Notes: generated by a model from the letters alone, not told the origin. A stretch of 61,272 nt of DNA from Thermus sp. 2.9 (GCF_000794385.1 NZ_JTJB01000043.1:1-61272); one strand, 5' to 3'; numbered from the stretch's first letter, positions 1 to 13,494 are shown. Numbers and translations are program-made.

Positions 1-900
1 GACCCTCGGGATGTGAAAAAAGAGGGGGTGCTATGCAGCAAGATCGTGAGCACCCCCTTTACTATCTTGACGCGGAAACCCTTCTGGTGGCTACCTACAT
101 TTGGGTGGATGACGAACTCAAGGCCTTGCAAGCTCAGGACTTCAAGCTCCCCCCAAAGCAAAAGCACCAGAAGGCTACCCTGGCCGAGCTCCTAACCCTC
201 GCCATCTTTCTCCTTTTGCAAGGCCAAGACCTCGCCAAAGGCTACTTGGCCGCCAAGACCACCCTCAAGGCCTACTTCCCCTCCCTCCCCCACCTCTCCC
301 GCTTCTACCGGGTCCTTCAGAAGGCCCAGGGGTTGTTGGCTCACCTGGCCATGAGGCTCTCTGGGGGACAAGGCCTCCTGCAGGTGGTGGACCTCAAGCC
401 TATCCCCCTGGCCCACGGCCACCGCATCCACGGCCTCTCTCTTCCCGAGGCCGCGATGGGGGTAGGACCTCTGGGGGCTTTCGCGGGCTACGTCCTCATG
501 CCAGTGATGAACGAGCGGGGTCTCTTCTTTCGTTGGGCCATTCTCCCCGGTAATGCCCGGGAGACCTGGGGGAGGGACCTGCTGGACGGTCTGCCCGCGG
601 TCCTCGGGGACCGGGGCTTTCGTTGGGTCCAGGGAGTCAAGACACCACCCTATCGGGTCAGGGGAGGAAGGGTGGTGGAGACGGGGTGGAGAGGGTGGAT
701 GGGAAGGGTACGGAACTGGATAGAGACCCGCTTCAGCGTGATGGTGCGGTCTTTGGGGCTTCATCGGATAGAGGCCCGGTCCTACTGGGGGCTGGTGGCC
801 CGGGTGAACCTCATCCTGCTTGTTCACAACCTCATACGTAGCCGGGTGCTTCTCAGGATGGCCGGGGTGGAGCTATGAGGTAGCACACGAAGGAATCAGG
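1..900 (+). mobile_element. Insertion sequence, 5' end outside or at window edge
   Basis: This stretch is taken up by one transposase gene and therefore is most of an insertion sequence. The left end lies at or beyond base 1, and I could not find a convincing inverted partner of the first bases (GACCCTCGGG) in the 200 bases after the gene, so the right boundary given here is only approximate. No target-site duplication can be checked because the left flank is missing. Confidence 0.6.
33..878 (+). CDS. DDE transposase, IS982/IS4-like
   Basis: A 281-residue protein that would catalyse transposition of its own element. The DDE triad can be read as Asp in VVDLKPIPL (near 116), Asp in LGDRGF (near 196) and Glu in NWIETRF (near 232), followed by a helical, hydrophobic C-terminus that ends in a HNL motif. 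The order and spacing resemble IS982-type transposases, but the match is loose and an IS4/IS5 relative is possible. A Shine-Dalgarno-like GAGGGGG lies just before the ATG at 33. The gene looks intact. It is not the same element as the IS982 copy at the other end of the window. An overlapping ORF on the opposite strand is a Pro/His-rich shadow. Confidence 0.75.
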   Translation: MQQDREHPLYYLDAETLLVATYIWVDDELKALQAQDFKLPPKQKHQKATLAELLTLAIFLLLQGQDLAKGYLAAKTTLKAYFPSLPHLSRFYRVLQKAQGLLAHLAMRLSGGQGLLQVVDLKPIPLAHGHRIHGLSLPEAAMGVGPLGAFAGYVLMPVMNERGLFFRWAILPGNARETWGRDLLDGLPAVLGDRGFRWVQGVKTPPYRVRGGRVVETGWRGWMGRVRNWIETRFSVMVRSLGLHRIEARSYWGLVARVNLILLVHNLIRSRVLLRMAGVEL

Positions 901-950
901 CTAAAAGGGTGTTTGTCCCAGAAAGTTGGCTAGGATATAAAGGGAGCGAG

Positions 951-987
951 TATCACAATGTGAACTTCGAGTATGTGTAGTGTGATA
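951..987. promoter_or_regulatory. Dyad TATCACA...TGTGATA with inner TCACAATGTGA
   Basis: TATCACA at 951-957 is mirrored by TGTGATA at 981-987, and the left arm is part of a tighter dyad, TCACAATGTGA at 953-963. The centre is about 70 bases upstream of the expected transcription start for the 1088 gene cluster, a usual position for a CRP-family activator. The TGTGA/TCACA half-sites fit such a protein, but no regulator gene is nearby, and a link to the adjacent insertion sequence cannot be excluded. Confidence 0.35.
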
Positions 988-1004
988 GTTTTTCTTTCCC
1001 CCAA

Positions 1005-1034
1005 TTGACGGTGGTTGGGAGTACGTCCTAGGTT
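1005..1034 (+). promoter_or_regulatory. Sigma-A promoter for the 1088-8157 cluster
   Basis: TTGACG (1005-1010), an 18-base spacer, then TAGGTT (1029-1034). Transcription would start near 1041 and give a leader of about 47 bases with a good ribosome binding site. The same -10 hexamer is used by the promoter at 48716-48745. Confidence 0.55.
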
Positions 1035-1087
1035 AGTGCACAACGTATCCAATACGTGGCAAGGGTGTTGGGAAGGAGGCAAAGCAG

Positions 1088-1906
1088 ATGCTGATTGGCA
1101 TGCGGAAGGCCCTGGCAGGTATAGCGGTTAGCGCCATGTGGGTGTCCTCGTTGACAGTAGCGGCACAAGGCGATCTCCGGGTGGCTTCTCCCCCCGATTT
1201 CCCGGTGGAGTTGGCGGACCTCGAGGCGCTCCACGATGCGGGACGTTACCGGGAGGTCTACGAAAAGGCGCTTGCGCGAAAGGACGCCTGGGGTTTTATC
1301 CTAGCCTCCTATAGCGCCACAAACTACGCCCGTTACCAGGCACAGGATGCCGAACGTCAAGATTGGTTTAGGCGCGCTGCAGATGCGGCCCGCGAGGCGA
1401 TAAAGCTCTCTCCTCAAGAGAAACGCAAGGCGTCTTTTGACGTGAGTGCCGAGGCAAAGGCTTACTTCGCCTTGGGACAAGCCTTGGGAAGGTACGTTCA
1501 GTATGCAGGTCTATTCACACAAGCGCTCTTGGTGAACCAGATTCGCTCTGCTTTCAGTAAGGCGATTGAGTTGGCCCCGCAATTCCCAGATCCATATATT
1601 GGTATGGCGTTGTGGCATGCGGAGGGGGTTTCGCGCAACATATGCTTAATCTTTGGGTGTAAGCGGGATCAAGTGCGGGTGTTCTTAGATAAGGCTGAGA
1701 GCCAGCGTAGCAATTCCAAACGAGTGGTCTTGGGTTACGTGGATGGGGGCTATGCGAACTTGCTGATCGGAGATTTCCAGGAATCCGAGCGCGGCTTGAC
1801 CACGGCGCTAGCGACCCCAGCCAAAACGGCTGAAGACAAGTATGAGCACGAGCGGGCTCGCAAGCTGATGGAGGAGCTTAACCGCAAGAGGGGGACAGCG
1901 AAATGA
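1088..1906 (+). CDS. Secreted TPR-like protein of unknown function
   Basis: A 272-residue protein with an N-terminal signal peptide (basic MRKALAG then a hydrophobic stretch ending near AAQG). The rest is mostly alpha-helical with alternating Ala/Tyr/Leu patterns such as ALARKDAWGFILASYSATNY and IELAPQFPDPYIGMALW, which read as tetratricopeptide-type repeats. TPR proteins usually scaffold protein-protein contacts, and this one should act in the periplasm. ATG 1088 follows AAGGAGG at good spacing; ATG 1100 is an alternative. It is first in a chain of overlapping genes: its TGA overlaps the ATG of the acyl-CoA synthetase gene by 4 bp, so it probably serves the same process. Lower GC than most of the window. 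Function not recognised. Confidence 0.7.
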   Translation: MLIGMRKALAGIAVSAMWVSSLTVAAQGDLRVASPPDFPVELADLEALHDAGRYREVYEKALARKDAWGFILASYSATNYARYQAQDAERQDWFRRAADAAREAIKLSPQEKRKASFDVSAEAKAYFALGQALGRYVQYAGLFTQALLVNQIRSAFSKAIELAPQFPDPYIGMALWHAEGVSRNICLIFGCKRDQVRVFLDKAESQRSNSKRVVLGYVDGGYANLLIGDFQESERGLTTALATPAKTAEDKYEHERARKLMEELNRKRGTAK

Positions 1907-3609
1907 CGCGGGCGGAGGAAAAACCTTGGCTCAAGTTCTATGACCCGGGGGTTCCGCTGGAGCTTGAGTATCCCGAAGTGCCTGTTCAGGCTCTTCTGGA
2001 GGAGTCTGCGCGGAAATGGCCCTCAAAGGAAGCCCTCTTCTTCTACGGCACGAAGATCACGTACGCAGAGCTCTTATCCTTTTCTCAGAGACTTGCGGCC
2101 AATTTACAGCGCCTGGGCTTGAAAAAGGGAGAGCGAGTAGCGTTGATGTTACCGAATACCCCTCAGTACGTGATTGCCTACTATGGGGTGCTAAGCGCCG
2201 GAGGGGTTGTGGTTAATATGAACCCGCTCTACACACCCCGGGAAATGCGGACTATACTTCAAGATACTGAGGCTCGCTTTTTGATTATCTTGGACCTCGC
2301 TTTCCCGCGTTATCTAGAAATTGAAGGAGAAACGTCGGTGGAGCAGGTGTTTACCGCGGGGATTCAGGATTACCTACCCCCTCCCCTCAATGTTTTGTAT
2401 GTGGCAAAGGCTAAGCAGGAGGGGATTTGGCAGGAATTGCCACAGCATCCCAAGAGAAAGGATTTTGCCCTTCTCTTAGAAGCAGGAGAACCTCAACCAG
2501 TAGGAGTACATCCGGATGATTTGGCATTGCTGCAGTACACCGGGGGCACCACCGGTTCCCCTAAGGGAGCCATGCTTACGCACAGGAACCTGGTGGCCAA
2601 CGTTTACCAGGTTTGGTCGTGGATGGAAGCGGGTCGTTTCAGGCAGGATAAGTTCCGCTTGGAGGAGGGCAATGAGGTGGGCTTGTGTGCGGTGCCCTTT
2701 TTTCATGTCTATGGGATGACCGTGGCCCTGAACTTGGGGATCAAAGGGGGGGGGAAGCTCATCCTGGTGCCTCGGCCTGAGTCCAAGGAATTGGTGGATC
2801 ATGTGGAGGATCACCGGGTGACCCTTTTCCCTGGGGTACCCACAATGTACGTGGGTTTCCTGCAAGTGCCAAACTTGGCAAAAAGAGATGTTTCTTCTAT
2901 CAAGTTTTGCATTTCGGGGGCGGCTCCTCTCCCTGTGGAGGTGGCGAAGCGGTTTGAGGAGGTAACCGGGGCCAAGCTCATAGAGGGATATGGCCTGACT
3001 GAAGCGAGCCCCGTGACCCACGCCAACCCCCTTTTTGGTAAGCGCAAGGTGGGATCCATAGGTTTGCCCCTTCCCGGCGTAGAGGCGAAGGTGGTGGATG
3101 AAGCGGGCAAGGAGCTGCCTCCTGGAGAAGTGGGAGAGCTAGTGGTCCGAGGTCCCAATGTTATGCGGGGGTACTGGCGGAGGCCTGAAGAGACGGCGCA
3201 GGTTTTGAGGGATGGATGGCTTTATACCGGCGATATGGCCCGGATGGATGAAGAAGGCTACTTTTACATCGTGGATCGGAAAAAAGACTTGATCATTGCG
3301 GGTGGCTACAACATTTACCCGCGGGAAGTAGAGGAGGTTCTTTACAGCCATCCTGGAGTTTTAGAAGTTGCGGTAGTGGGTGTTCCCGATCCTTATCGGG
3401 GAGAGACTGTTAAGGCTTTTGTGGTCTTGAGGCCAGAAGCACGCGGGCAGGTGACAGAGCAGGAATTGGAAGAGTATTGCCGTAAGCACCTGGCTGTGTA
3501 CAAGGTTCCGAGAAAATGGGAATTTCGTGAGGAATTGCCGAAGAGTTTGGTTGGAAAGGTTCTCCGGCGGGTGTTGCGGGAAGAAGGGGGAAAGGGAGGT
3601 GGGTTATGA
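1903..3609 (+). CDS. fadD: Long-chain acyl-CoA synthetase
   Basis: A 568-residue AMP-forming ligase that activates long-chain fatty acids to acyl-CoA through an acyl-adenylate, the entry step to beta-oxidation. Seen: the ATP/AMP P-loop YTGGTTGSPKG at 212-222, GYGLTEASPVTH near 365, the adenylation motif YTGDMARMDEEG, the linker-like DRKKDLIIAGGYNIYPREVE, and the C-terminal catalytic lysine in LVGKVLRR (near 552). Length fits bacterial FadD. The ATG overlaps the upstream TGA (ATGA), and the gene's own TGA overlaps the next ATG, indicating translational coupling. The neighbours are exported or envelope proteins, which suggests coupling of activation to fatty-acid uptake. The nearby fadBAE operon supports the role. 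Medium-chain or aromatic acid specificity cannot be ruled out. Confidence 0.9.
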   Translation: MTRAEEKPWLKFYDPGVPLELEYPEVPVQALLEESARKWPSKEALFFYGTKITYAELLSFSQRLAANLQRLGLKKGERVALMLPNTPQYVIAYYGVLSAGGVVVNMNPLYTPREMRTILQDTEARFLIILDLAFPRYLEIEGETSVEQVFTAGIQDYLPPPLNVLYVAKAKQEGIWQELPQHPKRKDFALLLEAGEPQPVGVHPDDLALLQYTGGTTGSPKGAMLTHRNLVANVYQVWSWMEAGRFRQDKFRLEEGNEVGLCAVPFFHVYGMTVALNLGIKGGGKLILVPRPESKELVDHVEDHRVTLFPGVPTMYVGFLQVPNLAKRDVSSIKFCISGAAPLPVEVAKRFEEVTGAKLIEGYGLTEASPVTHANPLFGKRKVGSIGLPLPGVEAKVVDEAGKELPPGEVGELVVRGPNVMRGYWRRPEETAQVLRDGWLYTGDMARMDEEGYFYIVDRKKDLIIAGGYNIYPREVEEVLYSHPGVLEVAVVGVPDPYRGETVKAFVVLRPEARGQVTEQELEEYCRKHLAVYKVPRKWEFREELPKSLVGKVLRRVLREEGGKGGGL

Positions 3610-4862
3610 AGGGGTGGCGTGCTTGGGTTTGGCTCACCTTAGGGGGGGTTTTGGGAGCGTGTGGCCTTCCAAGTCCGGATGAGGCTAGGAGGAATCTGGC
3701 TCCGGAAACTCCCCTTACGCCAGAGTATCGGGACATTCCTTTGGCCAGGGTGCAGCTGGGCGTAGAGGACCTTTATGGGCTCCTTTTTGGCGAAAGCCCC
3801 AATGTTCGCCTCTTTGTTATGGATAGGGAAGGGGAAAGGGGCGGGATCCGTCAAGGGGATATGGCCTTAGAGATTGGGGTCCCGGATTTTGAACTAGCGT
3901 TTTTTGTTTCTGCGCTAGAGCTTAACCGGCCAGTAAGGAAAGAGGTTTCTCTACCCCAAATTGGCGGTGTGAACTACTCTTTGCAAAATCTCCTGAGACA
4001 GGCGCAGCTTCCCGAGGCTTATCTTTTGCAAACCCTCACCCTGACGTTACCCGAGGGGTATGTGCGGGCGAAGGACATTGCGGTTTGTGTGCGAGGGGGT
4101 AATTCGTGCACAAGCTTTTTAAGCCGGGTTGCTGATGGAAACACGGAGTTCCGCTTTGAGACGGGGAAGCCCGTAGAGGTGGTGGCCGAGGCGAGCGCCT
4201 TGCTCAATGCCTTAGGAACATCCGTGTTTGAAGGCGCAGTGGGGGTGGATCTTAAACTTACCCCATTGGCGGATCTTGGGGATCTCATTGCGTATGTAGG
4301 GCAAAGGGGATGCGGCATAACAGGATGCAACATACAGCAAAGCGTTACAGGGGCTCGGGTTTTAGCTCCCTTTGGCGCTAAGGCCTCGAGTCCCTTGGAG
4401 GTCGCCACGAAGGCGCTTGCTTCGCCTTTGGGTGCACTGCCAACGAGCACTGTGGAGGAGCTTAAGCGCTACACGGAGAAATTAGGCCTTACCTTGGAGC
4501 TCGAGTCCAGTCTGCCCACGGAGGTTTTAGGGGTGACCTTGTGGGCTGGATCAGGAGATAATCCTCGGTTTGATGCACCTTTGCCGCAGGATTTCGTTTA
4601 TACGACATCTGAGTCAATACCCGCTCCGCAGGTGGATTCCGACGGCCGTTCGTTGGGGGTTTCCCGCAAGGTAATCACCGTGGAGTTAACTCAGGAAGAG
4701 ACCAAGCGTTTCTTAGGTCTATTGGGACAGGAGAACGTTCACGTGGCAGCGCGTTTGCGCCTCCAGGGACCCCAAGGAAGCCAGGGGGTGTTTCGCTTCA
4801 AAGCAGAAGACCAATTGCGTATTTTTGCCAAGGGTACAGCAAGGTTGCGAATTGGGAGGTAA
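3606..4862 (+). CDS. Putative lipoprotein, unknown family
   Basis: A 418-residue protein beginning with a lipoprotein signal: hydrophobic WVWLTLGGV then the lipobox LGAC with Cys19 as the probable lipidated residue. Behind it is a PSPDEARR region and a long beta-rich body with alternating hydrophobics and few cysteines; one pair of segments (CVRGGNSC and CGITGC) could form disulfides. I recognise no domain. The start overlaps the fadD stop by 4 bp. It lies immediately before a probable outer-membrane barrel, so an outer-membrane-anchored partner of that barrel is a reasonable inference. Low GC and Thermus-atypical codons (GTT, TTA, AAT) compared with genes after 13 kb. Confidence 0.75.
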   Translation: MKGWRAWVWLTLGGVLGACGLPSPDEARRNLAPETPLTPEYRDIPLARVQLGVEDLYGLLFGESPNVRLFVMDREGERGGIRQGDMALEIGVPDFELAFFVSALELNRPVRKEVSLPQIGGVNYSLQNLLRQAQLPEAYLLQTLTLTLPEGYVRAKDIAVCVRGGNSCTSFLSRVADGNTEFRFETGKPVEVVAEASALLNALGTSVFEGAVGVDLKLTPLADLGDLIAYVGQRGCGITGCNIQQSVTGARVLAPFGAKASSPLEVATKALASPLGALPTSTVEELKRYTEKLGLTLELESSLPTEVLGVTLWAGSGDNPRFDAPLPQDFVYTTSESIPAPQVDSDGRSLGVSRKVITVELTQEETKRFLGLLGQENVHVAARLRLQGPQGSQGVFRFKAEDQLRIFAKGTARLRIGR

Positions 4863-4866
4863 AACG

Positions 4867-6084
4867 ATGCGAGGTGTTCGCTGGGTGGTTGGATGTTGGC
4901 TAGCACTTGGGGTTGTGGCTTTGGGGCAGCCCGCTTTTTATCCGGAAGGCCCGCAAGTCCTGCCGATGGAGGGGGGCATGAGGATTGGCCTTCCGAGTAT
5001 GGAGCTGGATGTTGATAACAACACGCTGACGCTGGCCGATTTAGTCAATGTGGCTGCGCTATTAAAGGATCCGCAACCGACGGACATCCTTCTCCTTGCT
5101 GCCAGGGTACCCAAGGGTGTGAATTCGGTGGCTACTTTACAAGGGCGGGGACAGGTGCTTGCGTTAGCTTGGCCTTTTGGGATAGATCCGCTAACAGGTT
5201 CGGCAGCTTTTAGCCTAGGACTTTCCTACGGTATTGAAGCTCGAGGTTTACTTAACATCGGTAAGGATTTGGTAGCCTTGGCGCAAGACGGCGCGCAGCC
5301 GGGAGATGCGCTCGTGTTGGATGGCACCCAAGGTATAGGTACGGTTTTTGACCGGTTGACGCTTCAAGCAGCCTTGCCTATCTTGGATGGGCTCGTTGTA
5401 GCGGGTACAGAAATATCGCTCCTGTATACAAGGTTCTTGGCCCAGGCAACCTTGGGGGGGAATCTCTATTACGATGCCAACGGATACGATGGCATGGTGG
5501 GCCTCGAGGCGGTGCGTGGGGGGGGTGGGTTCGGTTATCAACTGGGGCTTGGTCTGCAAACACGTTTGCCCACGTTGGGTGCGGGGGTTCGTATCAGGTT
5601 TTTGGGAAGGCTCAGCTATGCGGGCGAACGCACAGCGGTGATGATGCAAGCCACGGATGCAACGGCGTTGGATATTGTGGATTGCCTTCGTAATGCCACA
5701 AGCAATGCCCAGGTTAGCTGCGTTTCGCAGACCAACCAGGTATCCGAATCCCTGTCCTTACCCACGGAGGTGGATGCCTACGCTTACTACCCGCTTTTTC
5801 TTGGAGAGGGTGATCCAGTGTTTCTTATGGCACGGGCTCGGGGGGTATTGGGAGGGCCGCTTGAAGAAGGCTGGCGGATAGGTTTGGGTGCATCTTACCG
5901 GGTTTTCCCTCAAGTTCCGATGGGGGTGGAAGTGGGCTTGGGAGGTCCTTCGGGATTTGCGTTGGGTTTGCGTGTTGGATGGGAATGGCCTGGAGCGGAA
6001 CTGCGCTTTGGTCTGCTCCAGCGTGGAGGTTTCGTACTGGGTGCTAGGGGCACGGAGTTTCAGCTGGCGGCGGTGTTGAAGTAG
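4867..6084 (+). CDS. Probable outer-membrane beta-barrel protein
   Basis: A 405-residue exported protein: signal peptide MRGVRWVVGCWLALGVVALGQ cut near AFYP, then many amphipathic strands rich in Gly and aromatics (for example FGYQLGLGLQTRL, WRIGLGASYRVF, GFALGLRVGWEW) and a C-terminal strand, the pattern of an outer-membrane barrel. The family is not certain. It recalls FadL/TraF-like barrels, and its place two genes after fadD would suit a hydrophobic-substrate channel, but this is inference. The chosen ATG 4867 has GGGAGGT nearby and gives a clean signal peptide; an upstream in-frame start at 4825 would overlap the lipoprotein gene and spoil the signal. Confidence 0.65.
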   Translation: MRGVRWVVGCWLALGVVALGQPAFYPEGPQVLPMEGGMRIGLPSMELDVDNNTLTLADLVNVAALLKDPQPTDILLLAARVPKGVNSVATLQGRGQVLALAWPFGIDPLTGSAAFSLGLSYGIEARGLLNIGKDLVALAQDGAQPGDALVLDGTQGIGTVFDRLTLQAALPILDGLVVAGTEISLLYTRFLAQATLGGNLYYDANGYDGMVGLEAVRGGGGFGYQLGLGLQTRLPTLGAGVRIRFLGRLSYAGERTAVMMQATDATALDIVDCLRNATSNAQVSCVSQTNQVSESLSLPTEVDAYAYYPLFLGEGDPVFLMARARGVLGGPLEEGWRIGLGASYRVFPQVPMGVEVGLGGPSGFALGLRVGWEWPGAELRFGLLQRGGFVLGARGTEFQLAAVLK

Positions 6085-6093
6085 GGGGTTGGA

Positions 6094-7794
6094 ATGGTAG
6101 ATTCGGCGCGGCGGTACCATCTGTCCGAAGAGGAGCGCAAGCGGCTGAAGAAGGAGTTGGACCTGAAGGCGAAAGCTATCACGCCGCGGGCCCGGATGCG
6201 TGCGGTCATGAGCGTGATAGCCAGATATGGGTTGTCCCAGATCCTCGCAGGTGGAGTGCCCAGGACGGAGGAGGGGTGGCGTGCTCTGGGGCGCCGGGTA
6301 AAACAGGCTTTCCAAGAACTCGGCCCCACTTACATAAAGTTGGGTCAGGTTTTGGTTACACGACAAGAGCTCTTTCCCGATCCGTTTACCGACGAATTGA
6401 AAACCTTGCTAGATGAAGTTCCTCCCATGCCGTTTCCGTACATCGCTTTGGTGCTTCAAGAGGAACTTCCGGACGGGTTGGATACCTTTAATTGGATTGA
6501 CCCACAACCCCTGGCCTCTGCTTCGGTGGCTCAAGTGTATCGGGCGGAATTGCGGGATGGCCGGGCTTGCGCAGTTAAAGTGGTAAGGCCTCTGGTTGAC
6601 TTGCTATTCCAAACCGATATTGGTGTCATAAAGCGGCTCGCTTCACGGATCCAGCGCCTTTTGCCTCCTCCAGTTGCTGCTTCGGTAGATCTGCCCGGCA
6701 TATTGGAGGACTATTATTCCAGCGCACTCTCAGAGCTAGATATGCGCTTGGAAGCGCGCAATACCGAAGAAGGGCGACGGATGGCCGAGGAGTTTGCTAC
6801 GTTAGCTGTCCCCGAGGTATATCTGGCGACCCAGCGCGTGTTGGTGATGGAGTTTGTAGATGGTTGGAATTTGAAGGATTTTCCAGTGGATTTTTTCACC
6901 TTTGAGGAGCGTTTGGAAATCATGTTGGATTTAGCCCACATCTACATTAAAACCTTCCTGGAGGGCCTGTATCATGCAGACCCTCACGGGGGGAACTTAA
7001 TGATTCATCGCCATAACCGCAAGTGCTACATCATTGACTGGGGTATGATGGGGCGCATGGATGCAACACACATTGAAGCGATTTTTCGCACATTGCTTCA
7101 CGTGCGATCTGGTCAGGCAAAAGACGCAGCCGAAACGATTATGGAGGTGTACGAACCCACAGCTTTTACGGATCGGGGAAAACTGCGGGATCAGCTTCGT
7201 GCCTTGGGTATTCACTATGTAAACTCTGAGCAGGGCAGCCTACGAAATTGGGGTGATTTTCTGATTCGATCTATAAAGATCGCCTTCCAGAACCACTGCC
7301 GTATACCTTCCGGACTCGCCTTATGGGCGAAGGGATGGTCTGCGGCGGAAGGCACGGCGCGCTGGATCTGCCCGGAGATTAGCTTCCACCATGTGGTGGA
7401 ATCGGCAGATATACGTATCATAGAAAGCTGGCTTAAGCGCCGCTTTAACTACCGGACAAATGCGAGCTTGTTGGCTGAGGGGTTGGAATTTTTAGCCACA
7501 TTTCCACGTAGAGTCAAAGAAATTCTAGAAAATCTGGCTTGGAATGAGCTGAGATTGGTTCTGGAGGGAAGGCTTGCCCAAGACCAAGAACGCTTGATCT
7601 CACGGTTGGTTAACCGCCTTTCCCTGGGCATGTTAGCCAGTGGGCTGTTTTTAGGAGGTGCAATTCTGCTGGCGTTTGGCGGGGGGGTCCCGGGCAATCC
7701 TTCCATGGTACGGTTCGCTGGGCAGGTTGGGCTTTGGGGAGGGTTGCTCCTTTCAGCGTACTTGGTCTACAGGGTTGTGCGTCAGCGTATTTAG
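6094..7794 (+). CDS. ABC1/UbiB-family atypical kinase
   Basis: A 566-residue protein of the ABC1/AarF/UbiB family, ATP-binding proteins tied to isoprenoid-quinone and lipid handling. Seen: the family-specific KxGQ motif (YIKLGQVLVTRQELFP, Lys82-Gln85), the nucleotide loop PLASASVAQVYRAEL (141-152), the VAIK-type lysine in AVKVVRP (Lys162), the catalytic-loop equivalent HADPHGGNL (294-302) and the metal-binding IIDWGMMG (Asp315). Two hydrophobic segments near the C-terminus (about 515-535 and 545-562) should anchor it in the membrane. All key residues are present. It sits 10 bp after the barrel gene. Thermus uses menaquinone, so a ubiquinone role is unlikely; the operon suggests a fatty-acid or envelope-lipid task. 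Confidence 0.85.
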   Translation: MVDSARRYHLSEEERKRLKKELDLKAKAITPRARMRAVMSVIARYGLSQILAGGVPRTEEGWRALGRRVKQAFQELGPTYIKLGQVLVTRQELFPDPFTDELKTLLDEVPPMPFPYIALVLQEELPDGLDTFNWIDPQPLASASVAQVYRAELRDGRACAVKVVRPLVDLLFQTDIGVIKRLASRIQRLLPPPVAASVDLPGILEDYYSSALSELDMRLEARNTEEGRRMAEEFATLAVPEVYLATQRVLVMEFVDGWNLKDFPVDFFTFEERLEIMLDLAHIYIKTFLEGLYHADPHGGNLMIHRHNRKCYIIDWGMMGRMDATHIEAIFRTLLHVRSGQAKDAAETIMEVYEPTAFTDRGKLRDQLRALGIHYVNSEQGSLRNWGDFLIRSIKIAFQNHCRIPSGLALWAKGWSAAEGTARWICPEISFHHVVESADIRIIESWLKRRFNYRTNASLLAEGLEFLATFPRRVKEILENLAWNELRLVLEGRLAQDQERLISRLVNRLSLGMLASGLFLGGAILLAFGGGVPGNPSMVRFAGQVGLWGGLLLSAYLVYRVVRQRI

Positions 7795-7803
7795 GAGGGG
7801 TGC

Positions 7804-8157
7804 ATGAGGGAAAAAAACGGGTTGAGCATGGAAGAGCGGATACGCGCTTTTTACAGGCAAAGTGGTGGCCCGTTAAATCCAAGAATTCCGGAGTTGATAG
7901 AGCGGCATTTGCTATATGGTAAGGACCACGGTGTTCCTGGACGACGGGAGACCTTGACAGACGCCTTTATGCGCTGGTTAATGGAGGATCCAAGCATGCG
8001 GCTTATAGCGGAATTCTATATGCGCCGACAGATGCGCCAGGGATCGTTGGAGAGCCGCTTAATGCAAGTGGAAAAAGAGCTGGGCGCACTTCGTGAGGAG
8101 GTTAGGGAGCTCAGGCGGGCGTTCTTGGAGCTTTGTAAGCAGCGGACAGATGGGTGA
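7804..8157 (+). CDS. Small protein with C-terminal coiled coil
   Basis: A 117-residue soluble protein, not recognised. The N-terminal two thirds are helical and basic (MEERIRAFYRQ, DAFMRWLMEDPSMRLIAEFY); the last 40 residues show a heptad pattern (SRLMQVEKELGALREEVRELRRAFLELC), so it should oligomerise. The start follows TAGGAGGGG, 10 bp after the kinase gene, and the gene closes the low-GC cluster. It may be a small partner of the membrane kinase; a resemblance in layout to phasin-like granule proteins is noted but not supported by any motif. Confidence 0.6.
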   Translation: MREKNGLSMEERIRAFYRQSGGPLNPRIPELIERHLLYGKDHGVPGRRETLTDAFMRWLMEDPSMRLIAEFYMRRQMRQGSLESRLMQVEKELGALREEVRELRRAFLELCKQRTDG

Positions 8158-8211: not shown

Positions 8212-8230
8212 TTGACTGAGTATAAGTTTA
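8206..8230. promoter_or_regulatory. Palindromic operator at the fadB promoter
   Basis: TAAACTT (8206-8212) is mirrored by AAGTTTA (8224-8230) around an 11-base centre, covering the end of the -10 box and the start site. Inside lies CTTTGACTGAGTATAAG (8210-8226), which matches 14 of 17 bases of a site at 33698-33714 over the promoter of the acyl-CoA dehydrogenase/etf operon. Position and sharing suggest a repressor site for fatty-acid genes; in Thermus a TetR-family FadR is known to have this role. Confidence 0.55.
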
Positions 8231-8241
8231 GGGAGGCAAAG

Positions 8242-10536
8242 ATGCGTCGGATAAAAAAGGTAGGGGTCATAGGGGCCGGAACCATGGGTAGTGGGATTGC
8301 GGCTTTGGTGATTAGCGCAGGTGTTCCCGTGGTGCTTTTGGATATCCCGGGACAGGATGATCGGAATGCCCCGGCGAAGCAGGGCATTGAGCGGGCTTTG
8401 AAGTCAAAGTTTCCCGCGTTCATGGACAAGGACTTGGCCTCGTACATAGAGGTAGGCAATATTGAAGACAATCTGGACATGCTGCGGGATTGTGATTGGG
8501 TGGTAGAGGCCATTGTAGAGAAAGTGGAGCCGAAGCGGGCGCTTTACGGCCGATTGGAGTCTGTGCTCCATCCGGAAGCCATTGTTAGCTCCAACACGAG
8601 CAGTATTCCCATGCGGATTTTGCTGGAGGGGCGTACAGATGAGTTCCGGCGCCGCTTTTTGGGGACGCACTTCTTTAACCCGCCGCGTTACCTCCATTTG
8701 TTAGAGATCATTCCCACGCCTGAAACGGATGCCAGCGTGGTGGCCGCCATTCGCCATTTTGGTGAGCGCATCTTGGGTAAGGGGGTGGTCCTGGCCAAGG
8801 ATAGCCCGGGCTTCATCGCCAACCGGCTGGGTGTGTACGGCATGGTGCAGGCGATGCGGCTTATGGAAAAGCACGACCTCACCATTGACGAAGTGGATGC
8901 GCTCACAGGTTCTCTCTTAGGGCGCCCGAATTCTGCCACTTTCCGCACCGCGGATCTCACGGGTTTGGATGTCTTGAAGCTGGTGGCGGAAGAGCTCGCG
9001 GAGGCTACTGGGGAAGACTTTACGCTTCCTGCGTGGTTTTACCAGATTGTGGAGCGTGGGCTTTTAGGGGATAAGACGGGGGCAGGCTTCTACAAAAAGG
9101 AAAATGGGGAACGATACACCTTGGATTACAAGACATTGGAATATCGCCCGCGTCAGAAGTTAGAGTTGCCCGAATTAAGGGCTTTAAAGGACAAGCCCTT
9201 AGAGGAGCGGCTGCGGGGCGCACAGCAATTGCCTGGAAAATACGGAGCCTTCTTGAAGGAACTCTTCGCCTCTACAGCCCACTATACGGTTTCCAAGGCC
9301 CCCGAGATCGCCTATGACCTGGTAGGGGTAGATCAGGCCTTGGAGTGGGGTTTCGGGTGGGAAGAGGGACCCTTTAAGAACATGGACGCCCTTGGCCTGG
9401 ATTATGTGCGCCAGGTATTCCAGGAATTTGGGCTTCAGGAACCAGACTGGATCGCAGGTAAAGAGCGCTTTTACCGCAACGGGACATTCCTGGGCTTTGA
9501 CGGGGTTTATCATCCTCTGCCGAGCCGTCCCGATGTCATACAACTGAAGCCCCTGAAGCGGGAAGGCAAGATCCTCCATTCTACTTCGGAGGCTTCTGTT
9601 CTGGATTTGGGCGATGGGGTGCTCTTGCTGGAGTTCCACAGCAAGATGAACGCCATCGGCGAGGGGGTCCTCCGAACGTTAGAGAAGGCGTTGCGCATAG
9701 TGGAGGCAGGGGAGTATTTGGGCTTGGTCATCGGCAACGAGGATCCCCGGGCGTTTTCGGCTGGCGCTAACCTCGCCTTGATTTTGTCGCTGGCCCAGGA
9801 AGGAGATTGGGCTGAGCTTAAGCGTGCCACCTACTTCTTCCAGCAAGCAACCAAAGCCATTCGGTATGCCCCATTCCCGGTTGTGGTGGCCCCGTTCGGC
9901 CTGACCTTAGGCGGGGGAGCTGAGTTCATGCTCCATGCGGACCATGTGCAGGCCCACGCGGAGCTATACACGGGCCTGGTGGAGGCGGGGGTTGGTTTGT
10001 TGCCCGCGGGCGGCGGCACAAAGGAAATGCTTTTGCGCTTCACTAGGGAGCTTTCTGGCTTCGCTCAGGCGGACTTATTTGAGGGTGTGCGCAGAGCTTT
10101 TGAACTTATTGCCACTGCTAAAGTGGCAACGAGTGCCCTCGAGGCCAAGAAGTTTGGCTTCCTTCGGGATCGGGATGGCATAACGATGAATCGCGATTTC
10201 CTCATCGCGGATGCAAAGCGTAAAGTGTTAGAGCTTGCCGTGGACTACAGGCCTCCCCTTCCGTCAAGGATTACCGTGTTGGGGGACGAAGCTCTAGGGA
10301 ACTTAAAGTACGCTGTTTGGCAGTTCCGGGAAGCGGGAGAAATTACAGACCACGAGGTCAAGATTGGTCAGGAAATCGCGTGGGTTCTTTCTGGTGGAGG
10401 TGGGCCGCGGCGTGAGGTGACGGAAGACTTCCTGCTGGAATTGGAGCGCGAGGCTTTTGTCCGGCTTTTGGGAACCCGGAAGACCCAGGAGCGCATCGCT
10501 TACACCCTGAAGACGGGTAAGCCGCTGCGGAACTAG
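8242..10536 (+). CDS. fadB: 3-hydroxyacyl-CoA dehydrogenase/enoyl-CoA hydratase
   Basis: A 764-residue bifunctional beta-oxidation enzyme with the dehydrogenase first and the hydratase/isomerase domain last, the FadN-type order rather than the E. coli FadB order. Seen: the NAD-binding loop GAGTMG (11-16), SNTSSIPM, GTHFFNPPRYLHLLEIIPT with the catalytic His, and near the C-terminus the crotonase segments FSAGANLALIL and GGGAEFMLHAD. It hydrates enoyl-CoA and oxidises the 3-hydroxyacyl-CoA with NAD. ATG 8242 is chosen because GGGAGG precedes it; an upstream TTG at 8212 lies inside the promoter/operator. First gene of fadB-fadA-fadE. No defect seen. Confidence 0.92.
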   Translation: MRRIKKVGVIGAGTMGSGIAALVISAGVPVVLLDIPGQDDRNAPAKQGIERALKSKFPAFMDKDLASYIEVGNIEDNLDMLRDCDWVVEAIVEKVEPKRALYGRLESVLHPEAIVSSNTSSIPMRILLEGRTDEFRRRFLGTHFFNPPRYLHLLEIIPTPETDASVVAAIRHFGERILGKGVVLAKDSPGFIANRLGVYGMVQAMRLMEKHDLTIDEVDALTGSLLGRPNSATFRTADLTGLDVLKLVAEELAEATGEDFTLPAWFYQIVERGLLGDKTGAGFYKKENGERYTLDYKTLEYRPRQKLELPELRALKDKPLEERLRGAQQLPGKYGAFLKELFASTAHYTVSKAPEIAYDLVGVDQALEWGFGWEEGPFKNMDALGLDYVRQVFQEFGLQEPDWIAGKERFYRNGTFLGFDGVYHPLPSRPDVIQLKPLKREGKILHSTSEASVLDLGDGVLLLEFHSKMNAIGEGVLRTLEKALRIVEAGEYLGLVIGNEDPRAFSAGANLALILSLAQEGDWAELKRATYFFQQATKAIRYAPFPVVVAPFGLTLGGGAEFMLHADHVQAHAELYTGLVEAGVGLLPAGGGTKEMLLRFTRELSGFAQADLFEGVRRAFELIATAKVATSALEAKKFGFLRDRDGITMNRDFLIADAKRKVLELAVDYRPPLPSRITVLGDEALGNLKYAVWQFREAGEITDHEVKIGQEIAWVLSGGGGPRREVTEDFLLELEREAFVRLLGTRKTQERIAYTLKTGKPLRN

Positions 10537-10557: not shown

Positions 10558-11751
10558 ATGCGCGAGGCGGTCATTGTTAGTGCGGTTAGGAGCCCCGTTG
10601 GGCGGGGAAAGCGGGACGGCGTTTTTGCGAATCTGCATCCGGTGGATCTGTCTGCGCAGGTGATGCGCGGTGCTGTGGAGCGGATTGGCCTTGATCCAGG
10701 GGAGCTGGAGGATGTCCTCTGGGGTTGCGCGGTCCCTGAGGCGGGGCAAGGGCTTAACATCGCGCGGTTGGCCCTTTTGAGGGCGGGTTTCCCCATAGAA
10801 GTGTCGGGGGCAACCGTTAACCGTTTTTGCTCCTCGGGATTGCAAACCATCGCCATGGCAGCTCAGGCTGTCATGACGGGAATGGCGGATGCGGTGCTTG
10901 CGGGGGGTGTGGAGGTGATGAGCCAGGTTCCCATGTCGGGGTTTGTTACCCGTTTGCACCCTGACCTGACCCCGGATACCTGGAGCCCGGAGGCTTACTC
11001 CACCTACATAGGTATGGGTTACACCGCCGAGCGGGTAGCGGAGCGCTTCGGAATATCCCGGGACGATCAGGATAAGTGGGCTTATCGGAGCCATCAGTTG
11101 GCCACCAAGGCGCAACGGGAAGGAAAGTTTACCGAGATCGTACCGATCCGCGTTCCCAAGGTGAGCTTCCAGGGGTCTAAAAAGGTGGTGGAGGAAGCGG
11201 TTGTGCAGGTGGATGAAACCGTTCGTCCGGATACCACCCTCGAGGCCCTGGCCAAACTCCGCCCCGCCTTCAAGAAGGGGGGCACGGTGACCGCGGGGAA
11301 CGCCAGCCCTTACTCCGACGGGGCAGCGGCGGTGATCGTCATGAGCCGGGAAAAGGCGGAGGCCTTGGGCCTAAAGCCCCTCGCCCGTTTTGTCAGCTTC
11401 GCCGTGGCGGGGGTGGAGCCCGACGTCATGGGCATCGGTCCGGTGAAGGCGGTGCCCAAGGCCCTGGCGCGGGCGGGCCTCACCCTGGACCAGATTGACC
11501 TCATAGAGTTCAACGAGGCTTTCGCCGCCCAGGTTCTGGCGGTGATGCGCACCCTGGGCATGCCGGAGGAGAAGACCAACGTGAATGGCGGGGCCATCGC
11601 CTTGGGCCACCCCTTGGGGGCCACGGGGGCCAAGCTCACGGCCCAGCTCATCAGCGAGCTTTCCCGTCGTGGGGGGGGCTACGGCCTTGTCACCATGTGC
11701 ATCGGCGGCGGCATGGGGGCTGCTGGTGTCTTTGAGGTGTACCCGGCTTAG
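10558..11751 (+). CDS. fadA: Acetyl-CoA acyltransferase (thiolase)
   Basis: A 397-residue thiolase that cleaves 3-ketoacyl-CoA to acetyl-CoA and a shortened acyl-CoA. The acyl-accepting Cys91 is in NRFCSSGLQ, the oxyanion NEAFAAQ motif is present, and the C-terminal catalytic His (GHPLGATGA) and Cys ([11 protein letters not shown]) are both intact. It lies 21 bp after fadB and 12 bp before fadE. Base composition changes inside this gene: up to about 11,210 it has the lower-GC style of the upstream genes, and after that it is typical GC-rich Thermus sequence, which may mark a recombination joint. Confidence 0.92.
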
Positions 11752-11763
11752 AAGGAGGAGCGT

Positions 11764-13494
11764 ATGGTTCAGGAAAGGAAGCTTTGGCAAAAGGGTGGTG
11801 GGTGGCTTTTGGAAGCACCGGAGCGGATTTATACGCCGGAGGACTTTGACTCCGCGATCCGCGAGATAGCCAAAACGACCCGGACGTTTGCGGAGCGGGA
11901 GGTTCTCCCTCTCTTGGAGCGCCTGGAGCACGGCGAGCTGGAGCTGAACCGCGACCTGCTCCGTAAAGCGGGGGAGTTGGGCCTCTTGGGTGCTGAAACG
12001 CCAGAGGAGTATGGGGGGCTTGACCTTCCCAAAACCGTTTCCACGGTGATTGCGGAAAACCTTGCGGGGCTAGGGGGGTTTGCCGTTACCCATGGGGCCC
12101 ATACCACCTTGGCTATGCTTCCCATCATCTACTTTGGCAGCGAGGCCCAGAAGCAAAAGTATTTGCCCAAGATGGTAGCGGGCGAGTGGGTGGGCGCATA
12201 CTGCCTTACCGAGCCTGGTGCGGGTTCGGATGCGCTTTCCGGTAAGACCCGGGCCACCCTTTCGGAGGACGGGAAGTACTACATACTGAACGGCGTCAAG
12301 CAATGGATCTCTAACGCCGGCTTCGCGGATGTTTTCATCGTTTTTGCCAAGGTGGATGGGGAGAAGTTCACCGCTTTCATCGTGGAGCGGAGCTTCGGGG
12401 TGAAGGTGGGTCCCGAAGAGAAGAAGATGGGCATTAAGTCCTCTTCCACCAGGCAGGTGATCCTAGAAGATGTCAAGGTGCCCGTGGAAAATGTGTTGGG
12501 CGAGATTGGCAAAGGCCACAAAATCGCCTTTAACATTTTGAATGTTGGCCGTTACAAGCTTGGGGCGGGATCCATTGGTGGAGCAAAGCTAGCGCTGGAG
12601 ATTTCCACCAAGTACGCCAAGGAACGGGTGCAGTTTGGTCGGCCCATCGCCCAGTTCGGCCTCATCCAAGAGAAATTGGCCGAGATGGCCACACGGGCCT
12701 TCGCCGGGGAGAGCGCCGTTTACCGCACCATGGGCCTCATCGATGAGGCCATTGGCGATAAGAAAGGCCCTGAGGCGGTGATGGCTGGCATTGAGGAGTA
12801 TGCTGTAGAGGCCAGTATCATCAAGGTGCTCGGATCGGAGGTTTTGGCCTACGCTGTGGATGAGGGGGTACAGATCCACGGTGGCTACGGGTATTCTCAG
12901 GAGTACCCCATAGAGCGGGCTTACCGGGATGCTCGCATTAACCGTATCTTTGAGGGAACCAACGAGATCAACCGCCTTTTGATCCCGGGCATGCTCCTTA
13001 GACGGGCCATGAAGGGGGAGTTGCCCTTGGTGCAGGCGGCTACCAAGCTTCAAGATGAGCTCATGTCCCCCAGCTTTGACGAACCGGAGGACCCGGAGGC
13101 AGCCCTGATCCAAAGCTTGAAAAAGCTAGCCCTCATGCTCTCAGGTCTGGGGGCCATGCGTTTTCAGCAGAGGCTTGAGGAGGAGGAGGAACTCTTGGCT
13201 GCCGCTGCGGACCTGCTCATTGATATTTATGCGGCGGAAAGCGCCTTGTTGCGGGCCCGTAGGCTTGGAGGGGTAGCGGAAAAGATGGCCCGACTGTACC
13301 TTTACCAGGCAGCGGATCGGGCACAGGTGCGGGCCAGCCAGGTGGTACCCCGGTTGGCGCAGGGGGATGAGCAAAGCTTCATTCTCTCGGCGGTGCGCCG
13401 GCTTACAAAGCGGCCCGCCGTGGATATGATTGCTCTGAGGAGGGAGATTGCGGGAGCGGTCCTCGAGGCCGGGGGCTACCCCATCCCCCGCTAG
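11764..13494 (+). CDS. fadE: Acyl-CoA dehydrogenase, long C-terminal form
   Basis: A 576-residue FAD enzyme that introduces the trans-2 double bond in acyl-CoA, the first oxidation of the cycle, passing electrons to electron-transfer flavoprotein. Seen: YCLTEPGAGSDA (near 143), KQWISNAGFADVF, QIHGGYGYSQEYP and IFEGTNEINR with the catalytic Glu. About 180 residues follow the usual acyl-CoA dehydrogenase core, as in the long FadE of Bacillus and Thermus. The start ATG is preceded by AAGGAGGAG. Last gene of the operon, followed by a strong terminator. The etfBA genes at 30813-32510 are plausible partners. Confidence 0.92.
   Translation: MVQERKLWQKGGGWLLEAPERIYTPEDFDSAIREIAKTTRTFAEREVLPLLERLEHGELELNRDLLRKAGELGLLGAETPEEYGGLDLPKTVSTVIAENLAGLGGFAVTHGAHTTLAMLPIIYFGSEAQKQKYLPKMVAGEWVGAYCLTEPGAGSDALSGKTRATLSEDGKYYILNGVKQWISNAGFADVFIVFAKVDGEKFTAFIVERSFGVKVGPEEKKMGIKSSSTRQVILEDVKVPVENVLGEIGKGHKIAFNILNVGRYKLGAGSIGGAKLALEISTKYAKERVQFGRPIAQFGLIQEKLAEMATRAFAGESAVYRTMGLIDEAIGDKKGPEAVMAGIEEYAVEASIIKVLGSEVLAYAVDEGVQIHGGYGYSQEYPIERAYRDARINRIFEGTNEINRLLIPGMLLRRAMKGELPLVQAATKLQDELMSPSFDEPEDPEAALIQSLKKLALMLSGLGAMRFQQRLEEEEELLAAAADLLIDIYAAESALLRARRLGGVAEKMARLYLYQAADRAQVRASQVVPRLAQGDEQSFILSAVRRLTKRPAVDMIALRREIAGAVLEAGGYPIPR

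Follow-up and report, generated by a model that had tools for sequence, protein, structure and literature searches.

A Thermus island that probably feeds hydrocarbon oxidation into beta-oxidation, and a conserved ABC1 and coiled-coil pair tied to R2lox

Introduction

The Mn/Fe oxygenase R2lox has been studied well in structural terms, yet its physiological role and its partners were long unknown. The ABC1/COQ8 proteins, known for quinone metabolism, are an ancient family, and what they do biochemically is still under debate. One paper, from 2024, proposes alkane hydroxylation for R2lox. The closest described relative of the locus analysed here is the cluster GK2769-GK2782 of Geobacillus kaustophilus HTA426, where the R2lox gene GK2771 lies with genes for an ADH, an ALDH, FadD and beta-oxidation (PMC10867098). 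Its product, GkR2loxI, is reported to break down C10-C22 alkanes in crude lysate; hydroxy fatty acids co-purify with it, and the double ligand mutant E202A/H205A lost its alkane activity only in part (PMC10867098). Since these are crude extracts and the loss in the mutant was partial, we rate the support from Geobacillus for an alkane activity of R2lox as moderate. Reviews place T. brockianus among the thermophilic alkane degraders and name ‘Thermus brockii’ as a hexadecane degrader.

Two other systems invite comparison. UbiB (an ATPase), UbiJ (an SCP2 protein that binds intermediates) and UbiK are accessory factors of ubiquinone synthesis, UbiJ and UbiK being needed only for the O2-dependent route (PMC6747719). 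In the diderm Marinobacter, the envelope proteins AupA and AupB serve alkane uptake, and AupA is FadL-like (PMC5989066).

The locus of Thermus sp. 2.9 shares with the Geobacillus cluster the grouping of R2lox, ADH, ALDH, FadD and beta-oxidation genes. The initial annotation of the locus knew of no described system with this set, which holds only in part, as the R2lox-ADH-ALDH-FadD-beta-oxidation cluster is published (PMC10867098). The two differ in that Geobacillus is a monoderm with P21/DUF6230-type proteins where Thermus has the proteins called here TPR, LP and BAR, in that the fad genes are other ones, and in that the Geobacillus paper is silent on the ABC1 gene and on a small coiled-coil protein gene (CC). 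With UbiB-UbiJ-UbiK the locus has in common an ABC1 protein, an SCP2-domain protein and a small coiled-coil protein beside the O2-dependent hydroxylation of a very hydrophobic substrate. However, the SCP2 domain is here fused to, or encoded next to, an oxygenase that has no relation to the Ubi hydroxylases, and the Thermus complex is putative. As in Marinobacter, envelope proteins are encoded in a diderm, in Thermus for a presumed alkane uptake, but BAR matches no FadL-family model (no FadL/Toluene_X match in Pfam or NCBIfam).

Results

Gene content of the plus-strand half

The window covers contig C43 (61,272 nt) of Thermus sp. 2.9 in full, and it begins with an IS982-like element. The features under study are:

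33..878, + strand: IS982-like transposase (NCBIfam transpos_IS982 E=2.9e-20, below the cut-off; placed by alignment of the divergent region in four genomes)
879..1087, no strand: right part of the divergent intergenic/promoter region (DNA alignment with genomes G051, G055 and G056)
1088..1906, + strand: TPR, a secreted or periplasmic protein with weak TPR similarity, island-only (TPR_11 E=0.012)
1903..3609, + strand: FadD, long-chain acyl-CoA synthetase (Pfam AMP-binding 1.3e-108; NF005220 636 bits)
3606..4862, + strand: LP, a beta-rich lipoprotein with lipobox LGAC, an orphan family of four Thermus genomes (AF2 pLDDT 32)
4867..6084, + strand: BAR, a secreted protein rich in amphipathic strands, a possible outer-membrane barrel, orphan family
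6094..7794, + strand: ABC1/UbiB-like kinase or ATPase of the R2lox-associated subfamily, with two C-terminal hydrophobic segments (Pfam ABC1 2.4e-48)
7804..8157, + strand: CC, a small coiled-coil protein with the conserved motif RI-AFYRQSGGP-NP---LLE-HLLYGKDHG, partner of ABC1
8242..10536, + strand: FadB, 3-hydroxyacyl-CoA dehydrogenase/enoyl-CoA hydratase, divergent allele (a TTG start at 8212 is also possible)
10558..11751, + strand: FadA, thiolase (TIGR01930 above cut-off)
11764..13494, + strand: FadE, acyl-CoA dehydrogenase, the final gene of the acquired block, before cysS on the minus strand (NF058590 above cut-off)

The six open reading frames from TPR to CC are separated by 4-bp overlaps or by gaps of 4-9 bp. 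Their GC content is 0.53-0.57 and their GC3 0.55-0.64, against a GC3 of 0.87-0.89 in the flanking cysS and hsp33; fadBAE in the window is likewise low (GC3 0.66-0.76). Coordinates, spacing and composition thus agree with the description in the initial annotation of six tightly spaced low-GC genes followed by fadBAE.

An acquired block between mfd and cysS

Five other Thermus genomes have the order mfd-fadB-fadA-fadE-cysS-hsp33 at this place, with fadBAE of locally normal GC and with none of the ten further genes of the island. In FadB and FadE, other Thermus share 90-95% identity with one another but only 75-78% with the island proteins, whereas the flanking Mfd and CysS closely resemble their counterparts in other Thermus. 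Because the other genomes have a different fadBAE allele between mfd and cysS and none of the ten genes, we conclude that the six genes and fadBAE belong to an acquired island of 13 genes in the mfd-cysS interval, of which they are the plus-strand half; the simplest reading is that a foreign 13-gene block replaced this interval. An origin elsewhere, which had been suggested on low GC, is borne out by the divergent fadBAE and by the absence of the ten genes from other Thermus species. The ancestry of the island is mixed: its ABC1 nests in a Bacillota clade, sister to that of genome G112 with 100/100 support, whereas close relatives of FadD and fadBAE occur in other Deinococcota.

The divergent half and the contig junction

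All four island genomes, that of the window and G051, G055 (T. brockianus YIM 77927) and G056, have the same nine-gene order, and its recurrence in three further Thermus genomes means that the arrangement is not due to chance. On the opposite strand, G051 and G055 continue with ADH, R2lox, ALDH and then mfd; in G055 an SCP2 gene precedes ADH, and in G051 the genes read were ADH, R2lox and ALDH. In G056, R2lox lies at the same place and distance from the nine genes. The list of genes first drawn up for this locus was right for the six genes and fadBAE but incomplete, for it held only the plus-strand half of the island; the divergent half was missed because the contig ends at the IS element.

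In the genome of the window, SCP2-ADH-R2lox-ALDH is found at the end of contig C42. Alignment of the four genomes shows that C42 stops within the divergent intergenic region (its left part is the end of C42, L045:13414-13498), and that C43 starts with the IS and then resumes the same region, so C42 and C43 very probably adjoin each other, with the IS in between. By this alignment, the IS982-like element occupies the former divergent promoter region between the SCP2 and TPR genes. Furthermore, the R2lox gene on C42 (L045:11038-11936) is frameshifted by the loss of 1 bp compared with T. brockianus, and no R2lox besides this copy was found in the genome of the window. The frameshift may be real or an assembly error. 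Given the frameshift and the IS in the promoter region, the hydrocarbon pathway may be decaying in this genome, unless the former is an assembly error.

R2lox and SCP2

The T. brockianus R2lox scores 347 bits with NF006202 (cut-off 315), and its closest PDB structure is GkR2loxI. Residues E66, V69, E99, H102, Y158, E163, E202 and H205 are invariant among seven R2lox sequences, and they match the metal ligands and the Val/Tyr ether cross-link of the Geobacillus protein (E69, V72, E102, H105, Y162, E167, E202 and H205).

The SCP2 protein of C42 scores 35.8 bits with PF02036 (cut-off 21.3). A gene for a PF02036 protein precedes R2lox, directly or with ADH between them, in Thermus, in Bacillota and in a second Deinococcota family, and the same arrangement was seen in MAGs of Acidobacteria, Bacteroidetes and Ignavibacteria. 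Moreover, in two other phyla SCP2 and R2lox are fused in one open frame, in a KSB1 MAG (L109:1440-2759) and a Calditrichia MAG (L116:9437-10879), and such fusions argue for direct cooperation of the two proteins. Many Bacilli loci are without an SCP2 of this type. In Geobacillus-like loci, a gene of ~140 aa between ADH and ALDH looks SCP2-like by eye; neither Pfam nor hhalign supported the assignment. In the second Deinococcota family (L057:4113-12261), a copper-type P-ATPase gene and a DUF305-like gene stand between SCP2-ADH-R2lox and ALDH.

ABC1 and the coiled-coil protein

The ABC1 protein scores 164.9 bits in Pfam (cut-off 22.9; E=2.4e-48), and all its kinase-like motifs can be read, KLGQ, ELD, HADPHGGN and DWG corresponding to KxGQ, ExD, HxDPHxxN and DxG. 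It is not UbiB proper, scoring 240.7 bits with the NCBIfam UbiB equivalog, far below the cut-off of 487.55, and the Pfam hits of CC, taken up to E=1, do not include UbiK (membrane fusogenic activity). The parallel with the Ubi factors is therefore one of working mode and not of membership. The CC proteins can be delimited as a small family that shares the motif RI-AFYRQSGGP-NP, LLE-HLLYGKDHG; their tails vary and are often coiled coils.

No ABC1 was detectable in any other Thermus genome of the set, and ABC1 proteins elsewhere in the phylum show ~27-36% full-length identity to that of the window. Across phyla, in contrast, the members of its subfamily are 46-63% identical, compared with 27-36% for generic ABC1s, apart from short partial matches. 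Four Bacillota genomes with this type of R2lox were checked, and all have an ABC1 at 55-63%, their other ABC1s being at 28-31%. In one Alicyclobacillus MAG, which came from a scan of genome contigs with R2lox, the R2lox gene has both a CC homologue and an ABC1 of 54% identity nearby. Of 250 sampled Bacilli, 47 have R2lox and 28 have the ABC1 subfamily, and every one of the 28 also has R2lox (Fisher p=7e-25, a value that overstates independence since the 28 carriers are related). CC is present at 28/28 fetched ABC1 loci in Bacilli, and R2lox lies within a stretch of ~20 kb at 21 of them, often less than 400 bp away. In the phylum of G112 (Bacillota), five of 299 sampled genomes carry the subfamily; in the four with long contigs, SCP2-ADH-R2lox-ALDH is divergent from ABC1 and CC, and in three of these four FadD stands between ABC1 and CC, a layout nearly that of Thermus. 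The Thermus ABC1 nests inside this R2lox-linked clade (100/100).

ABC1 and CC are thus a conserved pair tied to R2lox, a link that is new here; none between R2lox and ABC1/AarF/SCP2 was found in the literature searched. A search for the neighbourhood outside the strain, proposed in the initial annotation, found the nine-gene order in three Thermus genomes and the R2lox-linked ABC1-CC pair in Bacillota, so the refutation named there, a neighbourhood confined to this strain, does not apply. Gene for gene, the loci L230 and L231 correspond to the published Geobacillus cluster, and by their order GK2776 probably encodes ABC1 and GK2775 CC. The linkage has its limits. A scan of genome contigs gave 80 R2lox loci, most of them without ABC1, FadD or ADH nearby, and among these 80 no R2lox-ABC1 link was seen in Chloroflexota and others. 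Alicyclobacillus types have ABC1-CC within a beta-oxidation cluster and R2lox ~18 kb off, and in genome G356 R2lox is far away; the pair may thus serve acyl metabolism in general. At several Bacillota loci (L242, L244, L245 and L090), a gene for a MobA-like nucleotidyltransferase lies beside the TetR gene of a divergent R2lox island.

Envelope proteins

The TPR assignment of the 1088-1906 product is weak, and lipobox and signal peptides are readable in the sequences. LP and BAR match no Pfam or NCBIfam family above cut-off, including DUF6230, a family that Bacillota neighbours do match. LP and BAR occur in only 4/111 Deinococcota genomes, all Thermus; profile searches with LP, BAR and TPR over all ORFs of ~130 loci returned the T. 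brockianus copies only, and tblastn in plasmids gave no match to LP or BAR. TPR, LP and BAR were found only in the four Thermus genomes. AlphaFold models from three-sequence alignments reached a pLDDT of only 30.5 for BAR and 32 for LP, too low to give a fold. BAR has an excess of amphipathic strands (z=4.7) and ends in K, not in an aromatic residue; an outer-membrane barrel is possible. Several Bacillota loci of this kind encode secreted DUF6230/P21-type proteins where Thermus has TPR, LP and BAR, which suggests that the uptake part may have been swapped according to cell-wall type, although the Thermus proteins have no informative relatives.

T. brockianus also has a 116-aa secreted paralogue of the C-terminal part of BAR (L012:1486-1836; 52% identity) with an aromatic last residue, and it adjoins a lipoprotein alpha/beta-hydrolase-like gene.

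Discussion

We propose, with a probability of about 0.7, that the island oxidizes hydrocarbon and feeds the product into beta-oxidation, the R2lox half being combined with accessory and uptake proteins. TPR, LP and BAR would help a long-chain hydrocarbon, or its oxidation product, across the outer membrane and periplasm. R2lox would then hydroxylate the hydrocarbon, presumably an alkane or similar compound, as its Geobacillus homologue is reported to do in crude lysates. The steps that follow would be the known chemistry of the respective families: ADH and ALDH would convert alcohol to aldehyde and on to fatty acid, FadD would form the acyl-CoA, and FadEBA would run beta-oxidation. By analogy with UbiJ, UbiB and UbiK, SCP2, ABC1 and CC would extract the substrate from the membrane in which it is dissolved, or present it to the oxygenase, and the analogy suggests that they are a set for handling hydrophobic substrates. 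Much more tentatively, the three may form a dedicated complex that extracts membrane hydrocarbon for R2lox. The UbiB/UbiJ/UbiK design would then have been put to use independently a second time, outside quinone synthesis, and kept in monoderms and diderms alike, with the envelope parts swapped to fit the cell wall; we consider this possible but doubtful.

The initial annotation saw here a system of fatty-acid uptake and activation, with LP and BAR importing fatty acids, FadD activating them and ABC1 at the membrane; the R2lox half would then be a separate neighbour. FadD and fadBAE are indeed transcribed in one direction, and the Alicyclobacillus-type loci keep ABC1-CC in a beta-oxidation cluster at a distance from R2lox. 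However, the R2lox half accompanies the nine genes in 4/4 Thermus genomes, ABC1 accompanies R2lox in Bacilli, and other Thermus species have fadBAE without the ten genes, so we regard this explanation as unlikely. What stands of it is the single functional unit, its link to acyl activation and beta-oxidation, its acquisition and its span across the envelope, with a putative outer position of BAR and LP; the SCP2-ADH-R2lox-ALDH half points instead to hydrocarbon oxidation.

Less probable again is that the pathway salvages lipids instead of alkanes, R2lox, ADH and ALDH acting on long-chain diols, wax esters, or hydroxy or branched fatty acids of membrane or plant origin. The hydroxy fatty acids that co-purify with GkR2loxI, the modest effect of its mutation on alkanes and the R2lox that another Thermus carries beside a hydrolase-like gene without ADH or ALDH would fit such a role, but the published alkane loss with GkR2loxI, together with the matching cluster (PMC10867098), and the listing of T. 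brockianus as an alkane degrader speak against it. We give least credence to the idea that ABC1 and CC are quinone or membrane-protection factors that hitch-hiked in the island. It agrees with the ties of ABC1 proteins to quinones and with the Geobacillus paper, which gives these genes no role; yet the other Thermus genomes of the set do without a detectable ABC1, the subfamily is far more alike across phyla than generic ABC1s are, and the pair accompanies R2lox in many genomes.

On the favoured reading, hydrocarbon oxidation feeding beta-oxidation, the island probably lets some Thermus burn long-chain hydrocarbons, and it is a candidate genetic basis, with a heat-stable pathway, for the reported alkane degradation by T. 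brockianus. The conserved accessory set of such an R2lox-type island was previously unrecognised, and the ABC1-CC pair and the SCP2 fusions provide candidate R2lox partners that are directly testable. A role of ABC1 beside an alkane oxygenase, in a genus otherwise without ABC1, would help to separate a general extraction of hydrophobic substrates from the membrane from quinone-specific roles.

Other Thermus carry a different R2lox lineage (L050:9640-10512 and similar loci; 56-67% identity) without SCP2, ADH and ALDH; in L050 it adjoins a secreted hydrolase-like gene, near ruvC and ftsZ. The R2lox closest to the island copy (75%) is that of T. arciformis (L055:1979-2862), which is split in two frames and is possibly a relic of a lost island.
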